Positions 15,182 to 44,160 of a stretch of DNA of 64,000 nucleotides are shown here, in pieces. Source of the DNA: Beroe forskalii (taxonomy: Eukaryota > Ctenophora > Nuda > Beroida > Beroidae); assembly GCA_011033025.1 (NCBI GenBank), contig WFMF01000467.1:1-64000 (forward strand). Reading direction: 5' to 3'. The notes under the pieces are model-generated. The model saw only the letters and a list, made by a program, of their open reading frames with translations, ran no database searches and was not told the DNA's origin. Position 1 is the stretch's first letter. The number at the start of each line of letters is the position of its first letter. Position numbers and translations under genes: made by a program.

Positions 15182-15707
15182 CCTTAGTACACTTAAGAAC
15201 GGCGTCACTTTATTAGTGCGGTTTGGAAAAAACCGCACTAATTAAGTGTATAGTATTTAAGTGCGCATAAAATTAAGTTTATGCTAATTAAGTGAACAAT
15301 TTTTGTGAATTTTGCGTTTTTCGATTTTGTTTTTTTCGAACATAGATTAATGAATAACTATACTACCGGATTTAAATATATAGGCACTTAATAAGTTTAT
15401 AGCGACCAAAACAGTAAGTAAAATGACAAGACGAGCTGTATATTGTGACCGTTATCTAAAACTTAAATGGTTTAAAGAAAGAAATATAACTTATTACTGT
15501 AGAAAATTTGATTTATTTTCATAATTCCAAAATTTTTGATCGTTGGTCCTATGAAAGTATGAATATGATGTCCTGCAATCAAGAGGAAAATTTCAAATTT
15601 ATTCAAATTTCCACATCATTTTCTATCTCATAAAAACCGCACTAATAAAGTGCTCCGATCTTAAAGTGCGCGCAAATTACGTGATGCCGTTCTTAAGTGT
15701 ACTAAGG
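15182..15707. mobile_element. CCTTAGTAC-family MITE, left copy (526 bp)
   Basis: The terminal inverted repeats are CCTTAGTACACTTAAGAACG and CGTTCTTAAGTGTACTAAGG, flanked by TA on both sides. Subterminal blocks (CACTTTATTAGTGCGGTTT) are also inverted. There is no ORF. TA target sites suggest mobilisation by a Tc1/mariner-type transposase (inference). The mirror copy is at 43643-44160. Confidence 0.85.
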
Positions 15708-15709
15708 TA

Positions 15710-15917
15710 GACGGGTTTTTCATTGAGCATGTTTATAAAAAATTTTCCCAAAACCAAAAAGGATTTGGTTGTGATGGTCCGCGGCGGTTTTGAGGCGTTC
15801 TTTACTGTAAAACCCGTGATATGAGAAAGAATGTGACGGTTAAAACTGCTGCAACGTCACTTATATTATAAAATATACAGCATTCACGCAACTTAGATGC
15901 ATCAAAAAAGTGCCGTT
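15710..15917 (+). repeat. Spacer of the large inverted repeat, left arm
   Basis: This is the reverse complement of 43433-43640. It runs from GGGTTTTTCATTGAGCATG to TGCATCAAAAAAGTGCCG, with only a few mismatches. No coding potential was seen. Confidence 0.85.
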
Positions 15918-18900
15918 GATGTTCTCTGATCAGTTGCTACATCGTATCACCACGACACAATGATGTTCTCTGATCAGTTGCTACATCGTATCACCACGAC
16001 ACAATGATGTTCTCTGATCAGGTGCTACATCGTATCACCACGACACATTGATGTTCTCTGATCAGGTGCCATCGTATCACCACGACACATTGATGTTCTC
16101 TGATCAGGTGCTACATCGTATCACCACGACACATTGATGTTCTCTGATCAGGTGCTACATCGTATCACCACGACACATTGATGTTCTCTGATCAGGTGCT
16201 ACATCGTATCACCACGACACATCGATATTCTCTGATCAGGTGCTACATCGTATCACTACGACACATTGATGTTCTCTGATCAGGTGCTACATCGTATCAC
16301 CACGACACATCGATATTCTCTGATCAGGTGCTACATCGTATCACTACGACACATTGATGTTCTCTGATCAGGTGCTACATCGTATCACTACGACACATTG
16401 ATGTTCTCTGATCAGGTGCTACATCGTATCACCACAACACATTGATGTTCTCTGATCAGTTGCTACATCGTATCACCACGACACATTGATGTTCTCTGAT
16501 CAGGTGCTACATCGTATCACCACGACACATTGATGTTCTCTGATCAGGTGCTACATCGTATCACCACGACACATTGATGTTCTCTGATCAGGTGCTACAT
16601 CGTATCACTACGACACATCGATGTTCTCTGATCAGGTGCTACATCGTATCACTACGATGTTGCGACACATTGATGTTCTCTGATCAGGTGCTACATCGTA
16701 TCACCACGACACATCGATATTCTCTGATCAGGTGCTACATCGTATCACTACGACACATTGATGTTCTCTGATCAGGTGCTACATCGTATCACTACGACAC
16801 ATTGATGTTCTCTGATCAGGTGCTACATCGTATCACCACGACACATTGATGTTCTCTGATCAGGTGCTACATCGTATCACCACGACACATTGATGTTCTC
16901 TGATCAGGTGCTACATCGTATCACTACGACACATTGATGTTCTCTGATCAGGTGCTACATCGTATCACTACGACACATTGATGTTCTCTGATCAGGTGCT
17001 ACATCGTATCACCACGACACATTGATGTTCTCTGATCAGGTGCTACATCGTATCACTACGACACATTGATGTTCTCTGATCAGGTGCTACATCGTATCAC
17101 TACGACACATTGATGTTCTCTGATCAGGTGCTACATCGTATCACTACGACACATTGATGTTCTCTGATCAGGTGCTACATCGTATCACTACGACACATTG
17201 ATGTTCTCTGATCAGGTGCTACATCGTATCACCACGACACATTGATGTTCTCTGATCAGGTGCTACATCGTATCACTACGACACATTGATGTTCTCTGAT
17301 CAGGTGCTACATCGTATCACTACGACACATTGATGTTCTCTGATCAGGTGCTACATCGTATCACTACGACACATTGATGTTCTCTGATCAGGTGCTACAT
17401 CGTATCACCACGACACATTGATGTTCTCTGATCAGGTGCTACATCGTATCACCACGACACATTGATGTTCTCTGATCAGGTGCTACATCGTATCACCACG
17501 ACACATTGATGTTCTCTGATCAGGTGCTACATCGTATCACCACGACACATTGATGTTCTCTGATCAGGTGCTACATCGTATCACTACGACACATTGATGT
17601 TCTCTGATCAGGTGCTACATCGTATCACTACGACACATTGATGTTCTCTGATCAGGTGCTACATCGTATCACCACGACACATTGATGTTCTCTGATCAGG
17701 TGCTACATCGTATCACCACGACACATTGATGTTCTCTGATCAGGTGCTACATCGTATCACCACGACACATTGATGTTCTCTGATCAGGTGCTACATCGTA
17801 TCACCACGACACATTGATGTTCTCTGATCAGGTGCTACATCGTATCACCACGACACATTGATGTTCTCTGATCAGGTGCTACATCGTATCACCACGACAC
17901 ATTGATGTTCTCTGATCAGGTGCTACATCGTATCACTACGACACATTGATGTTCTCTGATCAGGTGCTACATCGTATCACTACGACACATTGATGTTCTC
18001 TGATCACATCGTATCACCACGACACATTGATGTTCTCTGATCAGGTGCTACATCGTATCACCACGACACATTGATGTTCTCTGCTGATCGTATCGTACAC
18101 CACGACACATTGATGTTCTCTGATCAGGTGCTACATCGTATCACCACGACACATTGATGTTCTCTGATCAGGTGCTACATCGTATCACTACGACACATTG
18201 ATGTTCTCTGATCAGGTGCTACATCGTATCACCACGACACATTGATGTTCTCTGATCAGGTGCTACATCGTATCACTACGACACATTGATGTTCTCTGAT
18301 CAGGTGCTACATCGTATCACTACGACACATTGATGTTCTCTGATCAGGTGCTACATCGTATCACTACGACACATTGATGTTCTCTGATCAGGTGCTACAT
18401 CGTATCACTACGACACATTGATGTTCTCTGATCAGGTGCTACATCGTATCACTACGACACATTGATGTTCTCTGATCAGGTGCTACATCGTATCACCACG
18501 ACACATTGATGTTCTCTGATCAGGTGCTACATCGTATCACCACGACACATTGATGTTCTCTGATCAGGTGCTACATCGTATCACCACGACACATTGATGT
18601 TCTCTGATCAGGTGCTACATCGTATCACTACGACACATTGATGTTCTCTGATCAGGTGCTACATCGTATCACTACGACACATTGATGTTCTCTGATCAGG
18701 TGCTACATCGTATCACTACGACACATTGATGTTCTCTGATCAGTTGCTACATCGTATCACCACGACACATTGATGTTCTCTGATCAGGTGCTACATCGTA
18801 TCACCACGACACATTGATGTTCTCTGATCAGTTGCTACATCGTATCACCACGACACAATGATGTTCTCTGATCAGGTGCTACATCGTATCACTACGACAC

Positions 18901-19257
18901 ATTGATGTTCTCTGATCAGGTGCTACATCGTACATCACCACGACACATTGATGTTCTCTGATCAGGTGCTACATCGTATCACCACGACACATTGATATTC
19001 TCTGATCAGTTGCTACATCGTATCACTACGACACATTGATGTTCTCTGATCAGGTGCTACATCGTATCACTACGACACATTGATGTTCTCTGATCAGGTG
19101 CTACATCGTATCACTACGACACATTGATGTTCTCTGATCAGGTGCTACATCGTATCACCACGACACATTGATGTTCTCTGATCAGGTGCTACATCGTATC
19201 ACTACGACACATTGATGTTCTCTGATCAGGTGCTACATCGTATCACCACGACACATT
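15918..19257 (+). repeat. 44-bp satellite array, left arm (about 76 units)
   Basis: The unit begins TGATGTTCTCTGATCAGGTG and continues CTACATCGTATCACCACGAC then ACAT, 44 bases in all. Two main variants, CACCACG and CACTACG, are interspersed. Rare units have small deletions (about 16070, 18005, 18085) or GTTGC instead of GGTGC. There are no spacers between units. The reverse-complement array at 41450-43432 is shorter. Confidence 0.95.
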
Positions 19258-19523
19258 AATTTTCCCGGTTGAGGTGTTACATCGGCCTACCGACAAGTGC
19301 GCACATAAGAATCTATTTCCCACTCTCTAACAGGGTGACTGAGCACTTCAGATGCTGAAAACTAAAACTGCGCACATTGCAGCACAGCCAAGTCAGAATC
19401 TAATCCAAACTACATCAAACAACAAGTGCGTCCAATGTTTCTTGTTGAGACTGTGAGTGATCTTGAAGCGTCTCTTGGCGCTGCCCCAACATGCACGCAG
19501 CCACAGTGCCCATGCGAGGTCAT
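19258..19523 (+). repeat. Inner flank of the large inverted repeat, left arm
   Basis: This is the reverse complement of about 41187-41449, with some divergence: CCGACAAGTGCGCACATAAG through CCACAGTGCCCATGCGAGGT. The match stops inside what on the right side is a LINE RT tail, so the breakpoint cuts that element. Confidence 0.8.
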
Positions 19524-19892
19524 GATGGGGACTTCGGCATGCGTGTTCATGATAGGCTAGATTTCACTGCGACTACAGTGGCCCTCTTGTTAACAGCTGT
19601 GACTTACTACACCGACTGACTGACACGCGATCATCTGCTCTGATAAGGTGGAATCGTACAGTTTGATCCGCTAGATAGCATGGAGGAGGAAGGCATTACC
19701 TATACCGAGGAACAGTAAGGTCAGATTTAGCTATATCGTCCGCAGTTCGGACTTTTCAGCTAACGGACTTAATAGCTACAGCTAGGACTTTATAGCTAAA
19801 CCTACAGAAAAATTTAGCTATATAGTCCTACAGTTAAATTCATTTGAGAATCATGTATTCAACCATATCAGAACAAGACTCCGGTTTTCAAT
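19524..19892. other. No gene seen
   Basis: This is a unique-looking AT-rich stretch. A small inverted motif around TTTAGCTATATNGTCC and repeated AGCTA blocks occur at about 19726-19840. No ORF or element ends were recognised. Confidence 0.5.
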
Positions 19893-19901
19893 CCTCAGGA
19901 G

Positions 19902-20520
19902 CAACGGTGGAGCAACGTTGATTTTTGAGCCGGGGAATTTTTCCCTCGAGAATTAACGCTAATTGAATTATGGTAATTTAATTAAAGCAGTCCAACAACA
20001 TCTTTGATCACAAAAAACAAACAATAACGTAGTTGTATGAAACATTAGCTTCTCACTCCCAGGTCCAAGGATGTTTGTTTTCCTAAAGCAATCAGGTCCG
20101 GCCAATATCTACGTGTTCTCATGTTGCAGCATATCAAAAATGATAGGCATATGGACGTTACATCATACTATCATAATATTGTGTCATTGCACTGAATTAC
20201 CGATTGGTAAAACCGCCTATCAAATGAAAAAGTCGTGTACACGTCTTACAGTAACCGAACTGAATCTAGTTGGTATCGGTTAATGATGGTCATAATCCTA
20301 TTTGGTCAAGGTAAAGTAGCCTTGAAATAACAAAAGCAAATTTTTACACAATTATAGATTGGCCAGAAAGTGTAACTTGAAAAGCTGGACACAATTTGCG
20401 ATTTTATATAAGAAGGTTGAAAATTTTGTCAAATTTGAGCCGGGAAAAAGGATACTTTCCCCGGCTCCATGAATAAAGCCTGGGAAAAACCCCCTGTCCC
20501 CGGCTCCTGCTCCACCCATG
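19902..20520. mobile_element. Candidate hAT-type MITE with 8-bp target duplication
   Basis: The left end is CAACGGTGGAGCA and the right end, as reverse complement, is CATGGGTGGAGCA. Both are followed inward by GAGCCGGGG. The direct repeat CTCAGGAG flanks it at 19894-19901 and 20521-20528. The terminal repeats are imperfect. The interior is AT-rich without a recognised ORF. Confidence 0.6.
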
Positions 20521-20528
20521 CTCAGGAG

Positions 20529-21212
20529 TGTTCTCATTGCCATCAGAGGTGTTAGAGGTTCTTTGTACAAAGAAAAGACTCTAGGCACAGCTGCATTTAA
20601 CCTCATTCCACAACATCTTATGAATTCCTATTTTTTAATGTATATAAAGTATAATCAGGACCTCCCCAGTTTTATCCTAATTTAATAATCATTATCAATT
20701 GTATAAGGGTTGTGTTTTTATCTAACTCTTTCATCATTTTGTTGTTCTGATATTTTTGATACATAATACTGGTGAGTGGTGATGCACTCTAGTGCTTTCC
20801 CAGGGATTGCTATAGTATTTGATTCTTGCTCTGCTCAGCTTCAGAGATTTTTCATTCTCAATGTGACAATGTGATTCACATTTCACATTACGTGAAATTG
20901 TTACATTCTAGTAAACAGATTGGATTTGAGTAGGTTGTTTGTAAAACCCTCGTAAGGGCTTGCCTCTTTTACGGGCGAGAAAAGTACAATCAAAAAAATT
21001 TAATAAATATGTATATAATAGTAATCATAAGAAGTCTTCAAGTATTACAAAAAATGATAGATTTCGCGAAAACAATAAAGTTTTGTGAGCTACTGTTATC
21101 AAGTTTCTGGAAACCCAGCAAATGACACACCACTTAAGAAATAGAAAATTATTCCTCACGTCACATAAACGTCAATCAAAACCATTATTAGAATGCAAAC
21201 ATTGTGAAATTT
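20529..21212. other. No gene seen
   Basis: This is AT-rich unique sequence downstream of the minus-strand LINE ORF1. The block CCTCGTAAGGGCTTGCC near 20948 and A/T-rich tracts near 20990-21060 could be the 3' end of that element. No ORF2 is present. Confidence 0.4.
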
Positions 21213-21989
21213 TCACGTATCACTATCAGCTGATTTTTCCTGAGTCACGATTTCTCCGCCTTTAATGAAATGTTTCTTGTCCGGGTATTTCTCACGCTTC
21301 TCCTTCAACTCTATGATGAGAAGTTTATGGGTTGAACGTTCTTCTAATGTCCTATCCGGTCTGATAAAAACCCTGCTGAACTTCTCAGAGTTACGCAGCC
21401 TCCTGGCTTGAACAAGGGCGTGTGTTGCACTGCTGCCACATGAGAACGCAATCTTCACTGGTCGAGGGTGATTCTTGTCTCCCGCTCTTCCTACTCGACA
21501 CACGTCCATAGCAGGCTTAAGCCCCAGCTCATTGAACACTTCCTGAACAGTTTCTGATAAGTCCTCATTCTCCTTCTCTGCCACGCCAAACATCATCACG
21601 TTCCTGCTGCGATCCTCCTCCTCACCAACAGACTTCACTGCAGATTTCACCGTGTCTGTATTGATCTGAGCCGCCGATTCACTGGAACACTTCACTACGT
21701 CACTATAAGACTTGATCTCAGCCTTAACAGTTTCCGACACAGTTTCCGTCATCGCGCTCTAAACAGAAGCTAACAACTTGTCCTTGCTCACAATGATCTC
21801 GTGCTGCTGAACGATGACAAGGGGTTCCTTGTTCAGCCTCCGACAACTGGATGACGTCGCACTGATAGGAGCGTCGCAGTGCAGTTCCTTTAGAGCTTTT
21901 CCAAGCCAGGTACTCGCTTTACTGAGCAAATCATCGATCTCCTTGTCGCTGGTGGACTTTGTACTTGTAGTTGTATTACCAGTAGCCAT
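21213..21989 (-). pseudogene. LINE ORF1-type coiled-coil/RRM protein, one stop
   Basis: ORF1 proteins of LINEs bind the element RNA. From Met at 21989 (MATGNTTTSTK) there is a helical N-terminal part. One in-frame TAG at 21759-21761 follows, then 179 open codons to TGA at 21213. The second part has a short coiled coil ending KSYSDVVK, then EDRSRNVMMFGVAE (first strand of an RRM-like fold), CRVGRAG, HPRPVKIAFSC and SRVFIRPDRTLEERS, and a tail with HFIKGGEIV. The same motif order is seen at 39420-40385, 45911-46846 and 63487-64000. No endonuclease/RT frame follows. The single stop is the only lesion seen, so recent decay is likely. Confidence 0.75.
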
Positions 21990-22690
21990 GTATAGTACTA
22001 TAGTAATACACACAGCCACAGTAAGTTACAATGTTATTAACAAGTAGGTAACTGATAAGACAGCGATAAAATCAAACGAATGCAATAATGGTTTGCTGCA
22101 ACTGAAATTTAAGAGTCATTATGTGAGAGTCATTATGTAACACAGATAATGACCTAAATCATTATATTAGACCAGGATTTGGGTTTTTGATGCAATTTAC
22201 TCAGTATAAGTTGGTTTTCGTCGCTATTTTTGAGCAAAAAATTCTTGGTTTGGCAACTGCTTGCAAAAATTTTCGTCTAAGGGGCCAGTTAAAATGGTTC
22301 AACAGGAAAAAATTATTCGATTTTTTGTCCATAGGGTCAATAACTCAATAAGGTAGCTAATATAAGTAAGTGAAACAATAAAACAAATGTGACGCGCAGA
22401 GTCCTACTTGATGTTAATGTTCAACCTGTAAACTACTACTTTGCGTATAGAAAATATCATCGCGTGTTCCATGCAGAAGATGATTTCGCGAAGTGGATGC
22501 AGATTTGAGACAATGAGCGCGCGTCGGAAACTTGTTATTCTGCGTGTGCTGTTGGGTTTACTGCATCACCAATCATCAAATTATGTAATTCCCTCAAAAA
22601 AATTCTATGCCAAATTATGAAAAACAATTTTCATTTCAATAACTGAATTGATCGGCTTTGCGGTCATGAAATGGACCCACCGTCCAAATA
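21990..22690. other. No gene seen; flank of a nested repeat
   Basis: This is AT-rich sequence. The segment GCAGAAGATGATTTCGCGAA at about 22470 resembles CAGAAGATGATTCCGCGGG at about 24534, which suggests that this flank belongs to the 23.5-24.6 kb repeat. Confidence 0.4.
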
Positions 22691-23503
22691 CACTCAGTTT
22701 TTTTTATAAGAAACTTATTGAAATCCTAGGCTACAAGTTTCTTATTTTTTCACGATTTTGAGCCTAAAAGTTTCTTAATCGGTTTCTTAATTCTACAGAC
22801 CGACATACCGTACGAAAATGTCTACGAAATTTCCAACATAGGAACCTACTGTAGACTGTAGTTGAGGATTAGAATCGAACCTTCTGATATTTTCAGTTAA
22901 ATTATACACTTTTAAGCATGTACCTATCTTAAAAGATTTGTGCAGCTGTATACAATAATGTTCAGGGATCTTCATCAAATGTTCTTCCAAAAAAGTTTGA
23001 AATTTAGATAATATCTAAATCCTATAATGCTTGGAACTTTTGGAAATAGATATGGAACTGTAATAGTGTCCTGTCGCAACAACAATTTCTAAATTTCTGT
23101 TTTGTGCTTTAGTATCTGGCATGTTACTTTAAACCGAAAAAAATCATGAAGGTTCATTTTCTAAACTTCTATTCTATATTATGATCAATTATCACATATC
23201 CAGTGTAATACTGTAATAGAAGTTCAATAGAAGTACTAGATTAGTTTCGGAATGTTCACAATCAAAATAGGGGTCTGGGGGCGCAGCCCCCAGAAGCCAG
23301 ACGTATCATGTTAAAAAGAATTTCAGTTGCAATAGGATTTTATACACAAATTTCAAAATCCTAGGCTAGAAGTTTCTTAATTTCTTAATTGTAAATCAGT
23401 GAAGTTTCTTAATTTTTCCGAAATTCTAGGCTAAGTTTCTTAAATTTTCGGAAATCCTAGGCTAAGTTTCTTATAGACAGTTTCTTATAAAAAAAACTGA
23501 GTG
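22691..23503. mobile_element. 813-bp MITE with TA target duplication
   Basis: Terminal inverted repeats are CACTCAGTTTTTTTTATAAG on the left and CTTATAAAAAAAACTGAGTG on the right, flanked by TA. GAAATCCTAGGCTA and TTTCTTAATTT recur inside both ends in opposite orientation. There is a short GC-rich patch at about 23275 (GGGGGCGCAGCCCCCAGAAG). No transposase is present. Confidence 0.8.
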
Positions 23504-23505
23504 TA

Positions 23506-24560: not shown

Positions 24561-24687
24561 ATTGGGAAAATCCGTGCGCGCTAGATATATGCGATTCTGT
24601 AGAATGAAGTTGGGAAAATTTTACCAATTTCTTAAAAGTGACTCAGACTGATTGAAATATGATTGAATAGACGGATTAGAATATATG

Positions 24688-24832
24688 TACTTTAGAGGCG
24701 TAAGACGAATATAATATTTAAATGTCGACAGCGCAGCTGGAGACATTTAAATAATTTGGAGTGCGAGGCGAAGCGAAGCTGAGCCGAGTGCTCTAAATCA
24801 TATTTCTGCGGTGAGTTTGAGCCTCTAAAGTA
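24688..24832. mobile_element. 145-bp MITE, TACTTTAGAGGC ends
   Basis: Terminal repeats TACTTTAGAGGC and GCCTCTAAAGTA enclose a short palindromic body (ATATTTAAATGTCGAC...). It shares the TACTTTAG terminus with the 26445-26626 MITE. Confidence 0.7.
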
Positions 24833-25187: not shown

Positions 25188-26227
25188 CAGGGCCGTAATT
25201 CCCGGGGGGGGCTAGGGGGGCTGAAGCCCCCCCCAAGATTTTTGAACTGACTCAAAAAATTCTAACTCCCTATTAAAATTTCCAACTTTACCGATCTTTA
25301 CAGTTTACTCATTGAATGGGGAATGATATTGATGCATCATTCGCAATTGCGAAGGTTTCAACATCATATCAACTCTTCATGTATGCTAGTTTGTAGGTTC
25401 ATCATGGTATTTTTTATCTACAAACCACAGTACAGAAGTGCTGTAATAAATCCATGTCTCCATAGTAAGTAGGCAAAAATAATAATAATAAGGAAAGAAA
25501 TAACTAAATATCGTGCTCATATCATGCTCATAACATGATCATAGATTTATGCAAGTGACAAACTCGAATGAATAAAAAAGATTCAATGATTGAGGGCGAG
25601 CTCCGGATGGAGGATGGAGTGTCTTCTGACCATTGGGCGAAACGGCAATTGAGTGCACCGGTCATGCTAATGATGGGGCGGAGTGGGGTGCCTTGCTTGT
25701 GTACTTTGGGCAGACCGTTTCGCCCAATGGTTGGGAGACGCTCTGTCCACCATCTGGAGCTCGCTCTCAATAATCAAGGACTCCTTCAGCCTCAGGGATA
25801 TCTTGGGGAAGTCAAAAAGATTCAATGATGTTCATAATAATTTAACACCTTAAAACAAGCAAGTGCTCTGGGCTAACAATGGGTCATCAGTTGGGTAAGG
25901 GTGATTATGAGGCACAATATGTCTGCACACGGTTTTTTAACATGAAAAATTGCTCAAGACTTGTTAAAGTACCATTGTATACGACTCATAATTTTCACGA
26001 TTCTTGCCCATTTCTGTAGGCCAAAATTCATTCTCAGACATTGAAAACCCCAAAAATTTTCCGGGGGCTCCGCCCCCCTAACCCCCCGCCAGGGGCTCTG
26101 CCCCTGGACCCCGCTGGGGGCTGCGCCCCCAGACCCCTGCCGCCAGGGGCTCCGCCCCTGGACCCATCCCCTGGCCTCGCTTCGCTCGCCCAGCCCCCCC
26201 AACTCGAAATTGAGAATTACGGCCCTG
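25188..26227. mobile_element. hAT-type non-autonomous element, copy 2 (1040 bp, intact ends)
   Basis: The ends are CAGGGCCGTAATTC and GAATTACGGCCCTG, a perfect 14-bp inverted repeat. It is flanked by the perfect 8-bp direct repeat TCTAGATA at 25180-25187 and 26228-26235. CAGGG termini with 8-bp duplications are typical of hAT elements. The body is nearly identical to copy 1, including the minus-strand RT fragment and the GC-rich 3' units. No transposase is encoded. Confidence 0.92.
25630..25716 (-). pseudogene. Captured reverse-transcriptase fragment in hAT copy 2
   Basis: The minus-strand GLPKVHKQGTPLRPIIS segment is the same as in copy 1 (with Cys in place of one Tyr). It is flanked on both sides by an inverted copy of CCATTGGGCGAAACGG/CCGTTTCGCCCAATGG. 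This suggests that the fragment was acquired once, before the two hAT copies spread. Confidence 0.6.
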
Positions 26228-26444
26228 TCTAGATATCCTGAAAGTTTCATCAAGTTTGCTCAAAAAACCTCGGAGATATGCACATTTTTGTAACGCAAAA
26301 GCAAAGGTCGCGTAGATGTGTATTTAAATTGGTATTAAATTACAGTGTGTCATAACAAACACATGATATAAAGCGCGTGTGGCAACACTACGGATATATT
26401 ACTACCCTCTAAATCGGTCTAAACCTGTCGTGAGACTACTATAT

Positions 26445-26626
26445 GTACTTTAGCGAAAGACCAGGAATTAACATATCTCTATTACATACGAATGAAATGA
26501 GTATGTAATAGGATATAAATATTGAGTAGCTTGCTACGAAATATTTATATCTAATTTATCACGCGACACTCGAAGAGTGGAGCCGTGATAAATTTAGATA
26601 TGTTATGAATGGCTTTCGCTAAAGTA
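26445..26626. mobile_element. 182-bp MITE, TACTTTAGCGAAAG ends (intact)
   Basis: Terminal repeats TACTTTAGCGAAAG and CTTTCGCTAAAGTA enclose a palindromic middle (AATATTTATATCTAATTTAT next to AGGATATAAATATTGAG). This is the intact reference for the truncated copy at 4861-5029. Confidence 0.85.
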
Positions 26627-26785
26627 ATATAATAGTCGAACGTGTTCTGCATATTTGTAACACGTAGGTTATATGTAGCTGTGGTTTGGGGATGACTGTG
26701 AATAATATTCATCTTGGGGCTATAAATTACATGAGGATACAAAGAAGACGCATGATAACTTGGCATGTGAATTAGCAAAGATCTA

Positions 26786-27557
26786 CCTTAGTGGTAGAAA
26801 TTAAGATGTGTATTTATTAAGGACGTACTTATTAAGAAGTGTACTAATTAAGGCAGTAAAATTTCTCCAAAAATCAGGCAAATCTAGGACTAAATTTCAC
26901 GTCGTTTCACCAATTTTCAACCAAACATACCGATATGAAAACAAGCCGAGGGCAGTTTTTTTCCATTGAATTCAATTTATTTACTATGAAATAGACAAAA
27001 GTAAAACTAGGCGTTCTAGAGAAACGGGTCAATGAGCATCCTAGATTCGACACCAATGCAGTGTGACTGCGGATTCTAAGAAATCATGTCAACAAGAACT
27101 ATCAGTTCGATGAAAGATTGGATGATGATTCCGCTGAAATTTTGAAGGCCTTGTTTCCTGATGAAAACATCGAAGATATCGAAGATGATTCTATTGGACT
27201 TGAAGTGGAAGATATGGAAGATGTGCAGGAAGACGAAGAAGCTGAAGAAATGCCTTTAAGTTTTATCGAGTGATAATTGTTTATCATATCAAGTTTGATT
27301 TCGTCTGCACTGATGCTTTCGCTGAAAAATCCTGAACCTGTATTGAGAGAAAATAGAATACCTTGATATTGTAGTGAATGAAAAGAAAGGTATCAATGTA
27401 TAAATCTTTACTTTAACAAAATTTTCTAAAATTTTGGTATTGTACAAATTACGGTAGGTAGAAATTAAGATTTGTATAATTTAAGGAGTGTACTATTTAA
27501 GACAGTAAAATCGCTCACTGCCTTAAATAGTACACTTCTTAATTTCTACCACTAAGG
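26786..27557. mobile_element. CCTTAGTGG-family element (772 bp) with TA target site
   Basis: Terminal repeats CCTTAGTGGTAGAAATTAAG and TTAATTTCTACCACTAAGG are flanked by TA. The XY copy at 15110 lacks this insertion (AAAGATC followed directly by GATTTTATATTATG). The interior carries a short degraded acidic C-terminal coding remnant on the plus strand. Confidence 0.8.
27028..27273 (+). pseudogene. Acidic C-terminal coding remnant inside the CCTTAGTGG element
   Basis: The plus-strand frame reads VNEHPRFDTNAV, an in-frame TGA, then LRILRNHVNKNYQFDERLDD and an acidic tail ending MPLSFIE. Acidic tails are common at the ends of Tc1/mariner and pogo transposases, so this may be the 3' end of the autonomous ancestor. 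The family is not recognised and the catalytic region is absent. Confidence 0.4.
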
Positions 27558-27834
27558 TACTTTATATAATGTTGATGTAGAGAAGATATAACATTGATGC
27601 GGTGTCGGATTAAACAAATAGAGCTCATGTAATAGATGGGTTTTTCATTTAGCATCCTTATAAAGTGTATGTGAGAGACGCTTGATATCAAGGGATGTAA
27701 TTCGCAGAGGAGCTATGTTAAATGTGCGTGAGACTATTATAATTTAATAGATGATGGTTGATTGGTAAAGCCACTTTAAGGAGACTTTCCGTTTTAGGAT
27801 GCACGATTGAGGCATAATACTGAAAATGAACATT

Positions 27835-30586: not shown

Positions 30587-32139
30587 GGTCGTATGAAAGT
30601 ATACCAATGACCCCCTGCTGACCCCCTGCTGACCCCCAGCTGACCCCCTACTGACCCCCTGCTGACCCCCTACTGACCCCCTACTGACCCCCTGGTGAAC
30701 CCCTACTGACCCCTGGTGACCCCTGGTGACCCCTACTGACCCCTAGTGACCCCTATTGACCCCCTACTGAACCCCTAATGACCCCTAGTGACCCCCTGGT
30801 GACCCCTAGTGACCCCCAGGTGACCCCCTGGTAACCCCCTACTGACCACCTACTGACCCCTACTGACCACTTCCTGATCATAATTCTAACATATATCATG
30901 AATGTTTTAAAAGCATTTAAAATAGCACTCAGCCTTATAATGACGCTTTATTGGTCAATTGCCACTCGATCAAGGCACCCTAAACGCACGCTCAAAACAT
31001 AAACGAGTCAGTTATATTTTTCATGTTCGTTATGTTATTCTGTTATTCAAGTCAGTCAAATAAGTCAGGACAGTCACGTTAGTCAAGTTATTCAAGTCAG
31101 TTCTGTCAGTCAGGTCAGTCAGGTCGGTCAAGTTGGTCAAGTTAGTCAAGCCATATTAGTCAAGCCACTTAAGTCAAGTTACTTTGATCAAGTCATGTCA
31201 TGTCAGTCATGTCAGTCATGTCAGTCATGTCAGTCATGTCAGTCATGTCAGTCATGTCAGTCATGTCAGTCATGTCAGTCATGTCAGTCATGTCAGTCAT
31301 GTCAGTCATGTCAGTCATGTCAGTCATGTCAGTCATGTCAGTCATGTCAGTCATGTCAGTCATGTCAGTCATGTCAGTCATGTCAGTCATGTCAGTCATG
31401 TCAGTCAGTCATGTCAGTCATGTCATGTCAGTCATGTCAGTCATGTCAGAGTCATGTCAGTCATGTCATGTCAGTCATGTCAGTCATGTCAGTCATGTCA
31501 GTCATGTCAGTCATGTCAGTCATGTCAGTCATGTCAGTCATGTCAGTCATGTCATTCATGTCAGTCATGTCAGTCATGTCAGTCATGTCAGTCATGTCAG
31601 TCATGTCAGTCATGTCAGTCATGTGAAGTTAGTTCGATTAAGTTATTCAAGTCAGCCAGGTCAGCCATACGGTAAAGTCAGACAAGTCCTGACTTATTTG
31701 ACTGACTTGAATAACAGAATAACATAACGAACATGAAAAATATAACTGACTCGTTTATGTTTTGAGCGTGCGTTTAGGGTGCCTTGATCGAGTGGCAATT
31801 GACCAATAAAGCGTCATTATAAGGCTGAGTGCTCTTTTAAATGCTTTTAAAACATTCATGATATATGTTAGAATTATGATCAGGAAGTGGTCAGTAGGGG
31901 GTCAGTAGGGGTTCACCAGGGGGTCACCAGGGGGTCACCAGGGGTTCTGGGGGGTCAGCAGGGGTCAATAGGGGTCAGCAGGGGTCAGTAGGGGGGTCAG
32001 TAGGGGTTCACCAGGGGTCACCAGGGGGTCAGTAGGGTTCACCAGGGGGTCAGTAGGGGGTCAGTAGGGGGTCAGCAGGGGGTCAGTAGGGGGTCAGCAG
32101 GGGGTCAGCAGGGGGTCATTGGTATACTTTCATACGACC
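30587..32139. mobile_element. 1.55-kb foldback nested in the 29.6-32.4 kb element
   Basis: The ends are GGTCGTATGAAAGTATACCA and its exact reverse complement, flanked by the 8-bp direct repeat GCGGGCTG at 30579-30586 and 32140-32147. The arms are mirror arrays of CTGACCCC (left, 30610-30870) and GGGGTCAG (right, 31888-32120). Unique mirrored sequence (ACATTCATGATATATGTTAG type) comes next, then a core of TCAGTCATG satellite. No protein is encoded. Confidence 0.85.
31193..31625 (+). repeat. 9-bp satellite TCAGTCATG
   Basis: There are about 48 near-perfect copies of TCATGTCAG, with a few unit losses (about 31405, 31420, 31448, 31463). Because nine is a multiple of three, several frames stay open on both strands, giving (HVS)n, (CQS)n, (MSV)n and (MTD)n. 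These are artefacts. Confidence 0.95.
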
Positions 32140-34175: not shown

Positions 34176-34179
34176 CTTA

Positions 34180-35053: not shown

Positions 35054-35608
35054 TTAATCTGCAAGGCTGAGTCCTTTCAGTAAAAATATCTCTATCTGTA
35101 CTATATCTGTACTCTTGAAGTTCTTGAAATTTCTGTTTAAAAAGGGTGCCATTGAAAACGATATTTGAGATTTCATACCAGATTTATTTATTACTGTGTT
35201 TTTCAATAAAGAAATTCTGTAAGCTATAAAGATTAATCTTTGTTTCACTAATCTTTGTTTCACTTTTGGAGCTGGTGATTTTAACATATCCTCAACTTTA
35301 CTTCTTACAGGACGAATACCCTCTCTGCTAATTTCATGACCAAGATAAACAACCTTATCCTGATAGAACTTGCATTTCTCCAAACTACATCTGAAACCTC
35401 TTCTTTCAAGCCTTTTGATAACTTCTATCACATTCAGAAGATGATCTACTGGAGTTCTACCTGATATGAGATTATCATCCACCCTGCAACAAGTCATCTT
35501 AGTTCCAAATAGAGTGTTATCAAAAGTCTCCTGAAAAATTGGGCCACTATTGTTCACTCCATATGGTAAACGATTGTACTGATATATAGTAAGGGAACTG
35601 TGTAGCAT
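35054..35608 (-). pseudogene. Ty3/gypsy reverse-transcriptase fragment
   Basis: The minus-strand frame carries YQYNRLPYGV, then IFQETFDNTL, CRVDDNLISGRT (the YxDD position reads R-V-D-D), KCKFYQDKVVYLGHEISREGI and SPAPK. This is the order of Ty3/gypsy RT from the LPFGV motif to the thumb. Residues after SPAPK no longer match a connection domain, so the frame has decayed. Integrase, protease and LTRs are absent. The left end abuts, and slightly overlaps, the inverted repeat at 35570-36200. Confidence 0.8.
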
Positions 35609-36240
35609 ACCTGTGAAAAAAATTCGTTCTTAAGGTTTTGATGCTCCAATCGACTCCAATAGGTGTCTAGAGTCACCAAAAAAATTTATTCAATTTTTGG
35701 AGTTGCGGAAAACCCAGGGTGACCACGCCCTTTTTTGACCGTGGGAATTTTTGAGGAAAATCACTAGAATTTAGCTGAATGGCAACTAAGGCATGATTAT
35801 ACTCTAAACCTAGGTTTTTTGATGCGAGAAATCCATTGCAACCATTACCTAGACTTCAAATCGCATATTTTGGCCATAATTGGCCACGCCCGGTTTTTGT
35901 CAAGGCCATTTTGGCTAAAAATCTCAAAATTTTGACAAGACCATACCATATCAAGATTATACTCTAAACCTACGTTTTTTGGTGCGAGAAATCGATTAAA
36001 GCCACTATCTAAGCGCCAACTCGCATATTTTGGCCACTACTGACCACGCCCAACTTTGTCATGGCCATTCTGGCCAAAATCTTGAAATCTTGATAAGACC
36101 GTACCATACCATGATTATAGTCTAAGTCCATGTTTTTCAATGCGAGAAATCGATAGAAGCCCGTATCTAGACTCCAAATCGCATATTCAAGCAAAAATTG
36201 GTCTCGCCCACTTTTTACAGCCATTTTGCTAAAAAATCTG
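35570..36240 (+). repeat. Foldback arm (left), about 140-bp tandem units
   Basis: This mirrors 38880-39445. ATTATACTCTAAACCTANGTTTTTT, ATGCGAGAAAT and ATATTTTGGCCA recur about three times in this arm, and appear in reverse complement on the other side. The segment ATCGATTAAAGCCACTATCT at about 35990 is the unoccupied site of TTAA element B in the other arm. Confidence 0.8.
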
Positions 36241-38085
36241 GTAATTACTTAATTAGGGATCGTTGACATATTACAGAGTCACATTGGGGGAGGGGGGAGG
36301 TTTCCGAATGATTACGTTTCATGTTATTGTAACAAATACAACAACTAAAAACTCGATTACGAGGGGAGGGGGATAAAATCGGCCAAAAATTGATTACGTA
36401 GTATGACTTGAACGATCCCTTATAACAATTGCGATTTAGAAGGCCATAGCATAAAACATACTCTAAACGACACGATGAACTGTTAAGTCTGACACCCAAA
36501 AGTCTGACATTGGCGAGCTTTTGAATGTCTGTTGGCTTCAACCTGTTGAATACTGGAGGTTTGTAATAAGCCTTCCACCTATTCCTTTCTTAACTTTACT
36601 GCAAACTCCAAGGCCAGCCCCTCAAAAGGTCAAAGTATCAGATGAAGTTGCCTTCTGGTACTTTCATCTTTTCATATGTTTACGGGTAATAACTAAAAAA
36701 TGGGACTTTTTTGTAACGGTCACTGCAGCCGAACTTGATTGGAAACGTTTTGAGCTCTGTCTGCCTTATAAGCCTATAGAAACCGAATACTATCGCCCTC
36801 ACATCCTCAAATTTGATATTATAAAGCAGTGTTGTAAAGTGTTGATATTATTCAGAAGTTCACTTGATATATTCTGATGATGCATACTCAAGTGCATCGT
36901 CAAGGTTTGTGCAGAGAAAAGAGTGTTGCCAAAGGTTGAGTGGTTTCAAAAAGTCAAAGGTAGAATGCTGTCAAGGAGAAATTGGGAAGACCAATGTCAA
37001 GGAAAAGTTGGTTTCAAGGTAAGAGTTCTCCCAAAGCTTCAAAGAAAGCGTGCTGTTACGAATAAATTGCTATCAAGGGAAGAGCGCTGTGAAATGTGGA
37101 GTGTTGTCAAATGTATACTGCTGTCAAGGGTACAGTGCCATCAACTTGACTGCACTCTACCCTTGACTTAATCTAAGGAAGAGTGATGTCTTGCAGTCTA
37201 GAGTAGATTTCTGTCAAGGATAGAGTGCTTCAAAGGGTAAAGTGATGTATAGCATCGAAGAGAATGGTGAAGTGTGTAGTGGAGCCAAGGGAAGAGCCCT
37301 GTCAAGGATAGAGTGATGTCATGGGTAAAGTGATGTCAGGACTAGTAGAGTGATGTCAAGGGTAAACTGTAAAGTGGTGTCATACCCCGTAGAGTGGTGT
37401 CTAGGGATGTGTGCTATCAAGGGTAGCTTGGTGTAAAGGTTGAAGTGAGCTGTGAAGGATATAGTGCTGTCAAGGGAAAGTGCTGTCAAAAATTATGCTG
37501 TAAAGCCAAGCGTAGAATGCTATCAAAGGTTCAAGACTAAATGTGCGATTGAATAAGTTATTTGTCTGCAGTCAAGTAACGAAAGCTGTTATCGTGAAGT
37601 GCAGTCAAAGGTCGATTTTTGTCAAGGATAAACAGTAAAACAGGTTGATGCCATGGGTGGGGGATTCTTCCTCTCCTGACAAGGAATGATTCTTGCCAAG
37701 CGTTGAGTGCTGTTGAGAGTAGAATTCTGTAAGCTGTCAAGAGTCAAGGATAAAGTGTCAAGGGTAGAGTGCTGTCAGGTGGAGTGTACTGTAAAGTGTC
37801 AGTGATGAAGTGTTGTCAAGGGTAGAGTAAAGAATGCTGCCCGGCTCTCAAGCAATGAGTGTTGTCTTGAGGAATATACTATCAAGGTTGGAGTGCTACC
37901 ATTAATTAAGTGTTCCCAAAATTGGCATTACAAAAATTGGGTCAATACTGGTCTGGATGCTGGTTTCACTGGATGTTTCTTAACAAACCCATCGAAGACA
38001 ATATGGGCCTGGAGTATAGTATAATGTTATTGCCTCGAATCAAAATGTATACAGTAATCATTGTATAATAATGGTATGGTATGGT
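36240..38085. repeat. Loop of the 35.6-39.4 kb foldback, with degenerate minisatellite
   Basis: The first part (36240-36880) is unique, AT-rich and without a recognised gene. From about 36900 to 37900 a degenerate motif GAGTGCTGTCAAGGGTA recurs irregularly. ORFs of up to 118 codons show no recognised domain. Confidence 0.5.
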
Positions 38086-38189
38086 CTTATCAAATTTTCG
38101 AGATTTTTGGACAAAACAATCAGGACAAAAACTGGGCGTGGTCAGTAGTGGCCAAAATATGCGAGTTGGTGCTTAGATAGTGGCTTTAA

Positions 38190-38871
38190 GGGGGCCAGGG
38201 GGGGTCTGAGGTCGATTTTCGGTTTTTTATTGTTTCTGATAGAGCTGAACGCCAGCTATCAGTAGGCACGCATCAAAAATATTATTCCCAGCCGAAATTA
38301 TGAATTAAACCGTGATTACCAGTATACAGTGCAAGGAACTTACGACGCGATTTGCCGAAAATAAACTTTAGGTTCTTTCTCCTACAGTTTTTGAGGAAAC
38401 CTTGAAACTTGGTAGTTATGTTCATAAAACGAAACTTTTCATGAGCCGATTTTTTGATTTAGGCCTCAGAAGTGAAAATATGAATTTTTGAAATTCGAAA
38501 ATCGTCATTTTTGACCATTTTTGGGACAGGAGCCAACTTTGAAAATTCATATTTTCACTTCTGAGGCCTGAATCAAAAATTGGCTCGCATGAAAGTTTTG
38601 CTTTAAGCCTTAGAACATAACTACCAAGTTTCAAGGGTTTTCCTCAAAATCTGTAGGAGGAGATAGATTTTAAAGTTAATTTTCGGCAAATCGCGTCGTA
38701 AGTTTGCGCGCACTGTAATTACAGGCGAAATCGCGATTTGAAAAATTTATAACTTCGGCTACGAACAATATTTTTTGATGCGGTAAAAACCTACTGGTAG
38801 CTGGCGTTCAGCTCTATCAGAAACAATAAAAAACCGAAAATCGACCTCAGACCCCCCCCCCCCCGGCCCCC
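38190..38871. mobile_element. TTAA-target MITE, copy B (682 bp)
   Basis: TTAA at 38186-38189 precedes GGGGGCCAGGGGGGGTCTGA. The right end has a long C run, then GGCCCCC and TTAA (38872-38875). The arms are mirrored (TTTATTGTTTCTGATAGAGC / GCTCTATCAGAAACAATAAA). The opposite foldback arm has the intact, unoccupied site, so this insertion postdates the inverted duplication. Confidence 0.88.
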
Positions 38872-38879
38872 TTAATTGA

Positions 38880-39445
38880 TTTCTCGTATCAAAAAAACAT
38901 AGGTATAGAGTATAATCATGTTATGGTATGATCGAATCAAAATTTCGAGATTTTTGGCCAAAAAGGCCTTGACAAAAACTGGGCGTGGTCAGAAATGACC
39001 AAAATATGCGAGTTGACGTCTAGATAGTGGCTTCAATGGTTTCTCGCACCAAAAACGTAGGTTTAGAGTATAATCTTGATATGGTATGGTCTTGTCAAAA
39101 TTTTGAGATTTTTAGCCAAAATGGCCATGACAAAAACTGGGCGTGGCCAATTATGGCCAAAATATGCGATTTGAAGTCTGGGTAATGGTTGCAATGGATT
39201 TCTCGCATCAAAAAACCTAGGTTTAGAGTATGATCATGCCTTAGTTGCCATTCAGCTAAATTCTAGTGATTTTCCTCAAAAATTCCCACGGTCAAAAAAG
39301 GGCGTGGTCACCCTGGGTTTTCCGCAACTCCAAAAATTAAATAAATTTTTTTGGTGACTCTAGACACCTATTTGAGTAGATTGGAGCATCAAAACCTTAA
39401 GAACGAATTTTTTGACAGGTATGCTACACAGTTCCCTTACTACAT
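38880..39445 (-). repeat. Foldback arm (right)
   Basis: This is the reverse complement of 35570-36200. It shares CAAAACCTTAAGAACGAATT and ACAGGTATGCTACACAGTTC at the outer end. The arm continues leftward to about 38085, interrupted by TTAA element B. Confidence 0.8.
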
Positions 39446-40385
39446 GAATCAGTACTCTTTAGACAGTGCTCAGGATATGTTGTTTGATACTTCTACGATG
39501 ATGCGTTCGTTTTGTGCCCAAGTGAAATGTAAGGATGTTGACGAAATGACACCTGACGCATTTGACTGTGCGGAATTCAGAAAATTACATGTCTCAGTCC
39601 GGCTTGTTAATGCGTTGCGGCAGCTTAAGTTGTGCTAGAATGCTCTGAAAGTGTCAACGTGCAAAATTGATCAGCTTAAGGACGAGGTTTTGATTTTGCA
39701 GAGGAGTGAACTTCAGAGCCAGAAGAAGGAGTTCGATGAAATGCAGAGTGATACTGTCGGGAAACTCGAGTCTACGTTAAAGTCAGAGTTAAGGAGTTAC
39801 AGCGATGCAGTTTAGTCAATTTTCAGCAGTCAAGTCTCGCCTGTGTCAGCTAAAGAGATTGCCGATGTTGTAAAAGAAGTGGTTCAGACTGAGGACAGGA
39901 CAAAAACATCATTTTGTTCGGTATTAAGGAGAGCAACAAAACGGATTTGGGTGAGATTGTCAATGAAGTTTTCAGTAAAAGCAGGGGAGAAGCCCCATGT
40001 CGAATTTTGTGAGAGATTGGGGAAGAAGAACGGAGACATACCCCGCCCCGTCAAGGTCTGTCTCACGAACAGTGTCGCAGCTGTACGCCTCCGCAGATGT
40101 GGGAAGAAGTTACGAGAAAGTCCTACGACAAGGTCAGTGTTTGTGGCACCGGATCTAACCCCTGAGGAGAGGCAGGAACGAAAGTAGCTGGTAGAACTGA
40201 TGAGGGCGAAGAAGAGAGAGGATCCAGATCATCACTTCTACATAGCGAAGAGAAGTGTGTGGTGTAGAGAAGAACCAAGGACTAAACCTGCTCCAGTCCA
40301 CCATATCAAGGATTTCCAGCCGGTTCAGGGAGGGACTAACAAAGCGGAAATCAGATCGCAAGCCCTAGAGGATGGCGCAACTTGA
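39420..40385 (+). pseudogene. LINE ORF1-type protein, heavily broken
   Basis: The same family as 21213-21989. The helical N-terminal part contains NQYSLDSAQDMLFDTSTMM, then KLESTLKSELRSYSDAV. The RRM-like part contains GEKPHVEFCERLG, PRPVKVCLTNS and VFVAPDLTPEERQER, and the tail has HHFYIA. In-frame TAG codons interrupt it at about 39637, 39813 and 40184. Two compensating frameshifts (about 39900 and 39985) disturb the first RRM strand. It starts right at the end of the foldback arm. No ORF2 follows. Confidence 0.75.
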
Positions 40386-40850
40386 AAATTGCTGCCAAGC
40401 TTATTGTGCATAAGTCTTTGTGTTTTGTGTTAATAAGCCAGTGACAGTGATAGAGTCAACTTTATTCATATTTATATCTATTTTTATATGTCTGACATTA
40501 CGGAACTGTAATTTGACATTGTATATATAATTCTAATTATTACCCTCCCGTGGCTCAAACTCAGTGTGATAATTATCGATATATCACTCCTTTATAGGAA
40601 TACTGTACAGTGGCGGAATAATAATAGAGCAGAATATCTTTGAATAAATTGTTGATTTTATGAAGGAGCACTCAAAATCTATAAAAACGTTGAATTCAAA
40701 CGAGGGTCGTCAGACCCGAGTGGGAGGGAGTACTGTTTAGTCGGGTAATAATACAATCAACAAACTCATGGATCGTGTGATATCGAAAATTGTCAAACTC
40801 GGCTGACGCCTCGTGTGATAATTTTCACACTCCCATTCGTTTGTTAATCG
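40386..40850. other. No gene seen
   Basis: This is AT-rich sequence between two LINE fragments of opposite orientation. Small palindromic stretches occur, including GTGTGATAATTATCGATAT and CCCGAGTGGGAGGGAG next to ACACTCCCATTCG. Confidence 0.4.
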
Positions 40851-41214
40851 TTCATTCTACATATAGGTTTTCGATGTTCATTATCAACTGTGAGTTGAAA
40901 AGTGGCTTGGTGTGCTCACGCCTGTAAAATTTTTCATCTAGACGTTGCTCCCCATATGGGCGAACTCGTGCACATGTTCTGAACTTATCAAGATATTCTT
41001 CTTTATTGCCAAATTAGATCCGAATGCACTTTTTCTGCATTCTAAATAGAGGTTCGAGTTTTGCGTTACTGACACCACCCCATACTGTTATACCATAAGT
41101 GAGATGACTTTCAAATAATGTATAGTAGATGTTTTTAAGATCAAGAAGCTCATCTGGCATGTTGTCTTTGATGAAATTTATATGACCTCGCATGGGCACT
41201 GTGGCCGCGTGCAT
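40851..41214 (-). pseudogene. LINE reverse-transcriptase C-terminal fragment
   Basis: The minus-strand frame reads NIYYTLFESHLTYGITVWGG, then PLFRMQKKCIRI, an in-frame TAA, FGNKEEYLDKFRTCARVRPY, EKFYRREHTKPLFNSQ and a TGA. This is the region after the RT palm in CR1/L2/jockey-type LINEs, ending at the normal protein C-terminus. Upstream RT and endonuclease are absent. The boundary lies at the inner end of the large inverted repeat. Confidence 0.8.
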
Positions 41215-41449
41215 GTTGGGGCAGCGCCAAGAGACGCTTCAAGATCCTCACAGTCTCAACTAGAAACATTGGACGCACTTGTTGTTTGATGTAGTTTGGA
41301 TTAGATTCTGACTTGGCTGTGCTGCAATGTGCGCAGTTTTAGTTTTCAGCATCTGAAGTGCTCAGTCACCCTGTTAGAGAGTGGGAAATAGATTCTTATG
41401 TGCACTTTTGTCGGTAGGCCGATGTAACACCTCAAACGGGAAAAATTAA
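41187..41449 (-). repeat. Inner flank of the large inverted repeat, right arm
   Basis: This is the reverse complement of 19258-19523. It overlaps the start of the LINE RT fragment. Confidence 0.8.
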
Positions 41450-43432
41450 TGTGTCGTGGTGATACGATGTAGCACCTGATCAGAGAACATCAATGTGTCG
41501 TAGTGATACGATGTAGCACCTGATCAGAGAACATCAATGTGTCGTGGTGATACGATGTAGCACCTGATCAGAGAACATCAATGTGTCGTAGTGATACGAT
41601 GTAGCACCTGATCAGAGAATATCGATGTGTCGTGGTGATACGATGTAGCACCTGATCAGAGAACATCAATGTGTCGTGGTGATACTATGTAGCACCTGAT
41701 CAGAGAACATCAATGTGTCGTGGTGATACGATGTAGCAACTGATCAGAGAACATCAATGTGTCGTAGTGATACGATGTAGCACCTGATCAGAGAACATCA
41801 ATGTGTCGTGGTGATAGGATGTAGCACCTGATCAGAGAACATCAATTTGTCGTAGTGATACGATGTAGCACCTGATCAGAGAATATCGATGTGTCGTGGT
41901 GATACGATGTAGCACCTGATCAGAGAATATCGATGTGTCGTGGTGATACGATGTAGCACCTGATCAGAGAACATCAATGTGTCGTAGTGATACGATGTAG
42001 CACCTGATCAGAGAACATCAATGTGTCGTGGTGATACGATGTAGCACCTGATCAGAGAACATCAATGTGTCGTAGTGATACGATGTAGCACCTGATCAGA
42101 GAACATCAATGTGTCGTGGTGATGTACGATGTAGCACCTGATCAGAGAACATCAATGTGTCGTAGTGATACGATGTAGCAACTGATCAGAGAACATCAAT
42201 GTGTCGTGGTGATACGATGTAGCACCTGATCAGAGAACATCAATGTGTCGTAGTGATACGATGTAGCACCTGATCAGAGAACATCAATGTGTCGTGGTGA
42301 TACGATGTAGCACCTGATCAGAGAACATCAATGTGTCGTGGTGATACGATGTAGCACCTGATCAGAGAACATCAATGTGTCGTGGTGATACGATGTAGCA
42401 CCTGATCAGAGAACATCAATGTGTCGTAGTGATACGATGTAGCAACTGATCAGAGAACATCAATGTGTCGTGGTGATACGATGTAGCAACTGATCAGAGA
42501 ACATCAATGTGTCGTGGTGATACGATGTAGCACCTGATCAGAGAACATCAATGTGTCGTGGTGATACGATGTAGCACCTGATCAGAGAACATCAATGTGT
42601 CGTGGTGATACGATGTAGCACCTGATCAGAGAACATCAATGTGTCGTAGTGATACGATGTAGCACCTGATCAGAGAACATCAATGTGTCGTGGTGATACG
42701 ATGTAGCACCTGATCAGAGAATATCAATGTGTCGTAGTGATACGATGTAGCACCTGATCAGAGAACATCAATGTGTCGTAGTGATACGATGTAGCACCTG
42801 ATCAGAGAACATCAATGTGTCGTAGTGATACGATGTAGCACCTGATCAGAGAACATCAATGTGTCGTGGTGATACGATGTAGCACCTGATCAGAGAACAT
42901 CAATGTGTCGTGGTGATACGATGTAGCACCTGATCAGAGAACATCATTGTGTCGTGGTGATACGATGTAGCAACTGATCAGAGAACATCAATGTGTCGTG
43001 GTGACACGATGTAGCAACTGATCAGAGAACATCAATGTGTCGTAGTGATACGATGTAGCACCTGATCAGAGAACATCAATGTGTCGTAGTGATACTATGT
43101 AGCACCTGATCAGAGAACATCAATGTGTCGTGGTGATACGATGTAGCACCTGATCAGAGAACATCAATGTGTCGTAGTGATACGATGTAGCAGCACCTGA
43201 TCAGAGAACATCAATGTGTCGTAGTGATACGATGTAGCAACTGATCAGAGAACATCAATGTGTCGTGGTGATACGATGTAGCACCTGATCAGAGAACATC
43301 AATGTGTCGTAGTGATACGATGTAGCACCTGATCAGAGAACATCAATATGTCGTAGTGATACGATGTAGCACCTGATCAGAGAACATCATTGTGTCGTGG
43401 TGATACGATGTAGCAACTGATCAGAGAACATC
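41450..43432 (-). repeat. 44-bp satellite array, right arm (about 45 units)
   Basis: This is the reverse complement of the 15918-19257 satellite, with unit CACCTGATCAGAGAACATCA at its core. It is about 1.35 kb shorter than the left array. The same GTGGTGATACG and GTAGTGATACG variants occur. There are no spacers. Confidence 0.95.
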
Positions 43433-43640
43433 AACGGCACTTTTTTGATGCATTTAAGTTGCGTGAATGCTGTATATTTTATAATATAAGTGACGTTGCA
43501 GCAGTTTTAACCGTCACATTCTTTCTCATATCACAGGTTTTACAGTAAAGAACGCCTCAAAACTGCCGCGGACCATCACAACCAAATCCTTTTTGGTTTT
43601 GGGAATTTTTTTTATAAACATGCTCAATGAAAAACCCGTC
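43433..43640 (-). repeat. Spacer of the large inverted repeat, right arm
   Basis: This is the reverse complement of 15710-15917, nearly identical, ending CATGCTCAATGAAAAACCCG at the MITE border. Confidence 0.85.
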
Positions 43641-43642
43641 TA

Positions 43643-44160
43643 CCTTAGTACACCTAAGAACGGCATCGTAATTTGCGCACTTTAAGATCGAGCACTTTAT
43701 TAGTGCGGTTTTTATGAGATAGAAATGATGTGGAAATTTCAATAAATTTGAAATTTTCCTCTTGATTGCAGGACATCATATTCACACTTTCATAGGACCA
43801 ACGATCGAAAATTTTGCAATTATGAAAATAAATCAAATTTTCTACAGTAATAAGTTATATTTCTTTCTTTAAACCATTTAAGTTTTAGCTAACGGTCACA
43901 ATATACTGCTCGTTTTGTCATTTTACTTACTGTTTTGGTCACTATAAACTTATTAAGTGCCTATATATTTAAATCCGGTAGTATAGTTATTCATAAATCT
44001 ATGTTCGAAAAAAACAAAATCGAAAACGCAAAATTCACAAAATTGTTCACTTAATTAGCATAAACTTAATTTTATGCGCACTTAAATACTATACACTTAA
44101 TTAGTGCGGTTTTTTCCAAACCGCACTAATAAAGTGACGCCGTTCTTAAGTGTACTAAGG
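43643..44160. mobile_element. CCTTAGTAC-family MITE, right copy (518 bp)
   Basis: The ends are CCTTAGTACACCTAAGAACG and CGTTCTTAAGTGTACTAAGG, with flanking TA. It is the mirror of 15182-15707. The outer flank (ATGGTCTTAGTTTGG) does not match the outer flank of the left copy. Confidence 0.85.

Follow-up and report, generated by a model that had tools for sequence, protein, structure and literature searches.

An inverted segmental duplication whose outer edge coincides with a MITE terminus in Beroe forskalii

The window analyzed here is the opening 64 kb of C544, a contig of 133,677 bp, from a 216-Mb genome assembly of 1,134 contigs. A BLAST self-comparison of the window reveals one pair of composite inverted arms, the left at 15180-19523 and the right at 41182-44162, which share about 96.4% identity across a gap of about 22,000 bases. 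The match comprises two overlapping inverted pieces, 15180-17930 against 44162-41420 (96.4%) and 17286-19523 against 43434-41182 (96.5%). Base-level alignment places its beginning, on both sides, at a TA dinucleotide plus the terminus of the transposable element MITE1, and its end at 19523/41182; the same alignment detects no relatedness between the outer flanks of the two arms. The arms and their surroundings are built from the following parts:

15074..15178, + strand: outer left flank, part of the dispersed repeat XY and donor site of MITE1
15180..15181, unstranded: TA on the outer side of MITE1-L, where the mirror begins
15182..15707, + strand: MITE1-L, 526 bp, with terminal inverted repeats CCTTAGTACACTTAAG
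15710..15739, + strand: continuation of XY inside MITE1-L, as in 11 of 11 XY loci examined
15743..15918, + strand: half of the ~290-bp hairpin element MITE2, left arm
15916..19284, + strand: 44-bp tandem array, left, 76.7 copies, grown within a TE4 copy
19285..19563, + strand: TE3 copy nested in TE4; the inner limit of the mirror falls within it, at 19523
19574..19832, + strand: remainder of TE4, beside the left arm only, 71-82% identical to 5 of 5 TE4 loci
40858..41181, - strand: LINE fragment, 324 bp, broken on either side, to which the right arm is joined at its inner end
41182..41419, - strand: TE3, right arm, truncated at 41182
41448..43434, - strand: 44-bp tandem array, right arm, 45 copies
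43432..43607, - strand: half of MITE2, right arm
43611..43640, - strand: XY piece in the right arm, with no XY outside
43643..44160, - strand: MITE1-R, identified by sequence alignment and tree
44161..44162, unstranded: TA with which the mirror closes, at the right arm's outer junction
44163..44329, + strand: right outer flank

The first-pass annotation had described mirrored multi-part arms, a mirror that halts at the outer MITE ends on both sides, and outer flanks that do not match each other, the left one being XY. BLAST and base-level alignment bear out the arms, the halt is accurate to the base with the TA included, and the alignments agree on the flanks. Its inner parts take on a different identity. 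The "208-bp spacer" exists and consists of 30 bp of XY plus half of the ~290-bp hairpin element, while the "266-bp flank" is present as a section of the dispersed element TE3. As for the LINE reverse transcriptase named for the inner side, only the right arm adjoins LINE DNA; the left arm instead runs into TE3 and then TE4.

Several other features share the window. An open 409-aa frame at 5524-6750 (+) matches DDE_1, HTH_psq and HTH_Tnp_Tc5 in Pfam and looks like a pogo/Tc5-type transposase gene; as a guess, this putative transposase could serve TA-inserting MITEs. A frame at 10842-11777 (-) contains a full-length SET domain match, and long arrays of ~20-bp units of the AGGTCAATTGTCGTA type, in inverted orientation, lie just beyond the left flank at 11991-14823. 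Near-identical dispersed pieces occur in direct orientation at 8134-9237 and 25188-27718 (1 kb at 95.5%, 100 bp at 100%). Between the arms, 30587-32139 has inverted arms (90%) with 11-bp arrays around a 9-bp TCATGTCAG array and looks like a foldback-type element with satellite arms, and a further inverted pair (92%) with 158-bp tandem repeats lies at 35576-36154 and 38875-39455.

Both MITE1 copies in the window are flanked by TA on each side with their ends facing outward, and their four ends are the only MITE1 ends found there at up to 3 mismatches. Across the genome, CCTTAGTACACTTAAG ends occur exactly 289 times and a reversed control pattern has no match. A TA stands on both sides in all 30 newly read copies, such that MITE1 shows both the terminal inverted repeats and the TA target duplication of a TA-inserting MITE. 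A 4.7-kb pair on contig C290 has ends that match MITE1, and its frames of at least 60 aa show no transposase by eye; it is not favored as an autonomous element, as its middle looks like other inserted DNA.

A tree of 30 loci, taken from the 40 scored among 277 candidates, unites five copies with a support of 100 in the order (R,(C218,(L,(C188,C991)))), with internal supports of 57, 70 and 75. Pairwise substitutions are 2/527 for L-C188, 4/516 for L-C991, 7/526 for L-C218 and 10/519 for L-R, and the flanks of C188, C218 and C991 match neither the window nor one another. MITE1-L has a branch of length zero in this tree, as a source copy would; the simplest reading is that MITE1-L, or a copy identical to it, served as the source. 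Furthermore, a subgroup base at MITE1 position 30 is present only in L, R, C188 and C218 (4 of 30 copies), which ties MITE1-R to the subgroup of MITE1-L up to the last 30 bp before its outer tip.

The outer left flank belongs to XY, which matches it (query 92-196) in at least 39 other places among the 40 of 170 candidates scored. A query that joined the left flank to the sequence inside MITE1, with MITE1 itself omitted, aligns straight through the insertion point in 11 of 11 XY loci examined, at 82-84% identity; since XY runs through this point in all of them, MITE1-L sits in its original target. In a control query that combined the right outer flank with the same inside piece, the match was limited to the inner 30 bp. 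At the MITE1 point the XY copies have about 14 extra bases relative to the window, which may mean that the window copy has lost a few bases, perhaps by deletion between two TAGA motifs located there.

Further inward, the arms contain only half of MITE2, both halves of which were found in 13 of 13 loci compared, followed by the 44-bp array, which measures 3.4 kb on the left and 2.0 kb on the right, a difference of 1.4 kb. A 32-base core of the monomer has 139 genome sites at up to 2 mismatches, 115 in the window arrays and 24 elsewhere; among the 100 core sites listed, 10 lie on other contigs, each of them solitary. Five of these ten were read (L082-L086), and all belong to one dispersed family, TE4, with one full monomer and one diverged second monomer and without an array in the copies read. 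The array is thus a young local satellite grown from a 44-bp stretch of dispersed TE4. Other TE4 matches in the window beyond the arrays lie at 33.4-34.2 and 48.8 kb; they measure 25-55 bp and correspond to the far ends of two TE4 loci. Monomer order was considered as evidence that the arrays were duplicated together and was rejected, as the two arrays are no more alike than shuffled ones (score 23.2; shuffled mean 18.7, sd 4.2, maximum 33.8; not significant). Either the arrays have turned over since, or they expanded separately.

The two ends of the structure therefore point in the same direction: XY continues outside and TE4 continues inside at the left arm only, which marks the left arm as the donor. 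These comparisons show the left arm to be the original and the right arm an inverted copy truncated at both ends, with the outer cut exactly at the MITE1 terminus plus TA and the inner cut within TE3. A 29-base pattern spanning the MITE1-XY junction occurs at exactly 2 sites in the 216-Mb genome at up to 3 mismatches, one per arm. For the right outer flank (44163-44329), the 40 candidates scored out of 1,177 include no other match; all others start at query position 170 or beyond. At its inner end the right arm meets the LINE piece, which represents part of a reverse-transcriptase frame downstream of the RVT_1 domain and is 94-96% identical to its best eleven other places (40 of 60 candidates scored). 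The piece alone gives no Pfam match; it falls in a 391-aa open frame of the relative L088, the upstream part of which matches RVT_1. In the relatives L088, L089 and L091 the LINE extends past both ends of the window piece, which is thus truncated on both sides. TE3 and the LINE meet at one base common to both partners, a microhomology of 1 bp.

The available data best fit a model in which MITE1 hopped from left to right and break repair then copied from MITE1-L, an account to which we assign slightly less than an even chance. MITE1-L would have placed a daughter, MITE1-R, about 28 kb away in inverted orientation, at a TA followed by atggtc. Next to MITE1-R, a double-strand break, for which a cut by transposase is a plausible cause, could then have left a broken end that invaded the homologous MITE1-L. 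Repair synthesis, either break-induced replication or synthesis-dependent strand annealing, would have crossed the inner flank of MITE1-L and copied a tract of the XY piece, half of MITE2, the array and part of TE3. In TE3 the synthesis would have aborted, and the end may have been joined to the 324-bp LINE fragment via the 1 bp of microhomology. The steps of homology-primed copying out of a repeat are general knowledge; their order here is our reconstruction. On this proposal the mirror goes no further than the MITE1 end because the two loci share no homology beyond it. Since MITE1 inserts at TA, a MITE1-R that arrived independently would come with an outer TA of its own, in agreement with the sequence.

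Several observations count for a hop followed by repair: the continuity of XY, the presence of TE4 on the left only, the two sole MITE1-XY junctions and the five-copy group in the tree. The doubly truncated LINE piece and the single shared base at the inner junction likewise fit repair. Divergence counts against this account: the arms differ by 10/518 substitutions in MITE1, 5/208 in the XY-MITE2 part and 8/266 in the array end plus TE3, with 6, 0 and 2 gap runs, respectively; since MITE1 is no more diverged than the rest, hop and copying would have been close in time, or a single event. Also against it stand the non-collinear array order, such that the array gives no independent support, the internal supports of the five-copy group, which reach only the values given above, and the ~14-base excess of XY, for which a small deletion must be assumed.

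A comparison of 60 MITE1 copies addresses recurrence. It covered the 30 tree loci and 30 pairs picked from 100 listed of the 289 places; pairs on C2 and C25, a wide pair on C247 and the C290 pair lay outside it, and the C2 and C25 pairs, compared separately, show no one-sided match. Among the 60 copies, which are not all independent given that both flanks are common to the members of one group, located mainly on contig C403, and likewise to three C206 copies, the window arms are the only clean pair with one flank common and the other not. Seven further pairs were flagged as one-sided, all within the C403 repeat group: L065 with L051, L052, L053, L056, L060 and L067, and L051 with L067. They were set aside, as a separate comparison shows both flanks matching in each; for L065 the MITE1 match starts only at position 31 and the match on the 5' side is displaced outward by about 178 bp, while L051/L067 narrowly missed the start threshold. 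The arm duplication thus looks like a single event. The C206 copies (338176-344513) lie about 3 kb apart with 100-bp flanks identical on both sides and the middle copy inverted, and represent either an inverted triplication or an assembly effect.

The strongest competitor dispenses with a separate hop: transposase would have linked MITE1-L by its outer end alone to the right-hand TA, and replication would have copied MITE1 and its inner flank until it aborted and the end was joined to the LINE fragment. A single event would then yield one constant transposon end and one variable end, in line with an outer junction that is exactly the MITE1 terminus plus TA, with the similar divergence of MITE1 and the remaining arm, and with the position-30 base of MITE1-R, which 4 of 30 copies have. 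Maize offers a precedent in alternative Ac transposition coupled to replication (PMC4270019). That case, however, involves two transposon ends and a target duplication, whereas the MITE1 ends in the window number only four, two per copy. No second such product appears in the 60 MITE1 copies, and the lack of both a second transposon end and a second example favors ordinary repair, leaving one-ended transposition doubtful, though a serious contender. The broader proposition behind it is less likely still: that a cut-and-paste MITE in a eukaryote can transpose replicatively by one end, with one terminal repeat joined to a TA about 28 kb away and several kb past the element's other end copied along, so as to generate local inverted duplications with one edge always at an element end. 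An improbable alternative is that a longer inverted duplication once included XY, and that its right outer flank was later exchanged through crossing-over or deletion involving MITE1-R and a further MITE1. The mirror would likewise end exactly at the outer MITE1 end, and partners are plentiful given the 289 exact ends; however, the rarity of the position-30 base implies few possible partners or an exchange within the outermost 30 bp, and two rearrangements are required.

Breakage and template switching independent of the MITE, with a boundary at the MITE1 end by chance, would account for an inner junction that resembles microhomology-mediated joining with filler. It is nonetheless very unlikely, as the outer boundary equals a transposon terminus plus TA to the base, a coincidence that we estimate at about 1 in several thousand arm positions. 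An assembly artefact that merged two places or two haplotypes is even harder to credit: substitutions separate the arms by 2-3%, one array is 1.4 kb longer than the other, the flanks differ, no third MITE1-XY junction exists, and the right flank in its first part is without another match among the 40 of 1,177 candidates scored. Least plausible, to the point of near dismissal, is a 29-kb MITE-bounded composite transposon or giant foldback element. The first-pass annotation had offered both next to an inverted segmental duplication, and of its three readings only the last stands, with an outer edge set by the MITE. Outward-facing MITE1 ends with TA on both sides would suit such an element, but MITE1-L still occupies the XY target in which it first inserted, and XY does not carry on in the right flank. 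The same continuity in 11 of 11 loci contradicts both the MITE-driven 29-kb composite and the predicted empty site in which the left XY flank joins straight to the right flank; the flanks are not two halves of one target. A foldback element, expected to have long modular terminal inverted repeats and dispersed copies, finds no support either, as the MITE1-XY junction is confined to the two window arms and the array is internal, not terminal. Three further candidates were rejected: a staggered-break inversion would have put TE4 beside the right arm, yet the TE4 remainder adjoins the left one; a right arm inserted into a LINE at TA disagrees with L088, L089 and L091, where the LINE continues upstream with sequence other than the right flank; and LINE-mediated chimeric retroposition conflicts with the lack, in the LINE piece, of the frame part that follows in the same three relatives.

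Taken together, the structure is a clear case of a known type of genome rearrangement and not a new mobile element of giant size. A repeat-rich segment was apparently duplicated and its copy placed elsewhere in reverse orientation, and the position of the copy edge exactly at the MITE1 end suggests that MITE1 guided the copying. More generally, nested repeats serve as landmarks by which donor and copy can be distinguished at both ends of a segmental duplication, and the locus suggests that the limits of a duplication which carries a young satellite array to a new place can be set by an abundant non-autonomous element. If transposition by one end were the true course of events, MITEs would be direct makers of inverted duplications.

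Known systems share some of these features. The foldback transposon Tetris has its repeats in its terminal arms. Tetris is reported to have fed emerging satellite DNA in Drosophila virilis, and the likeness lies in a tandem array derived from part of a transposable element (PMC4079207). In the present case, by contrast, the array sits inside one copy of a dispersed element, the other copies of which, where read, are without an array. In maize, transposition of reversed Ac ends followed by re-replication produces Composite Insertions, in which the transposon and its contiguous flank are duplicated (PMC4270019). There, too, a transposon terminus meets the target and microhomology joins the copied segments (4 bp in one allele), but two nearby termini and an 8-bp target duplication are involved (PMC4270019), as opposed to one MITE end, a TA target and an inner LINE fragment in the window. 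Measured against an Ac-type Composite Insertion, the window therefore has a terminus at the target and a copied contiguous flank, and lacks a second end and a target duplication. Tn3-type one-ended transposition, carried out by bacterial replicative transposases, leaves a constant end at the terminal inverted repeat and a variable other end; this pattern is alike, whereas only one product is known here. In break-induced replication and ectopic repair between dispersed repeats, homology ends with the repeat, such that a boundary falls at a transposon terminus while the copied tracts end arbitrarily; what sets the present locus apart is that the repeat is a short MITE and that its template is inverted and 28 kb distant.
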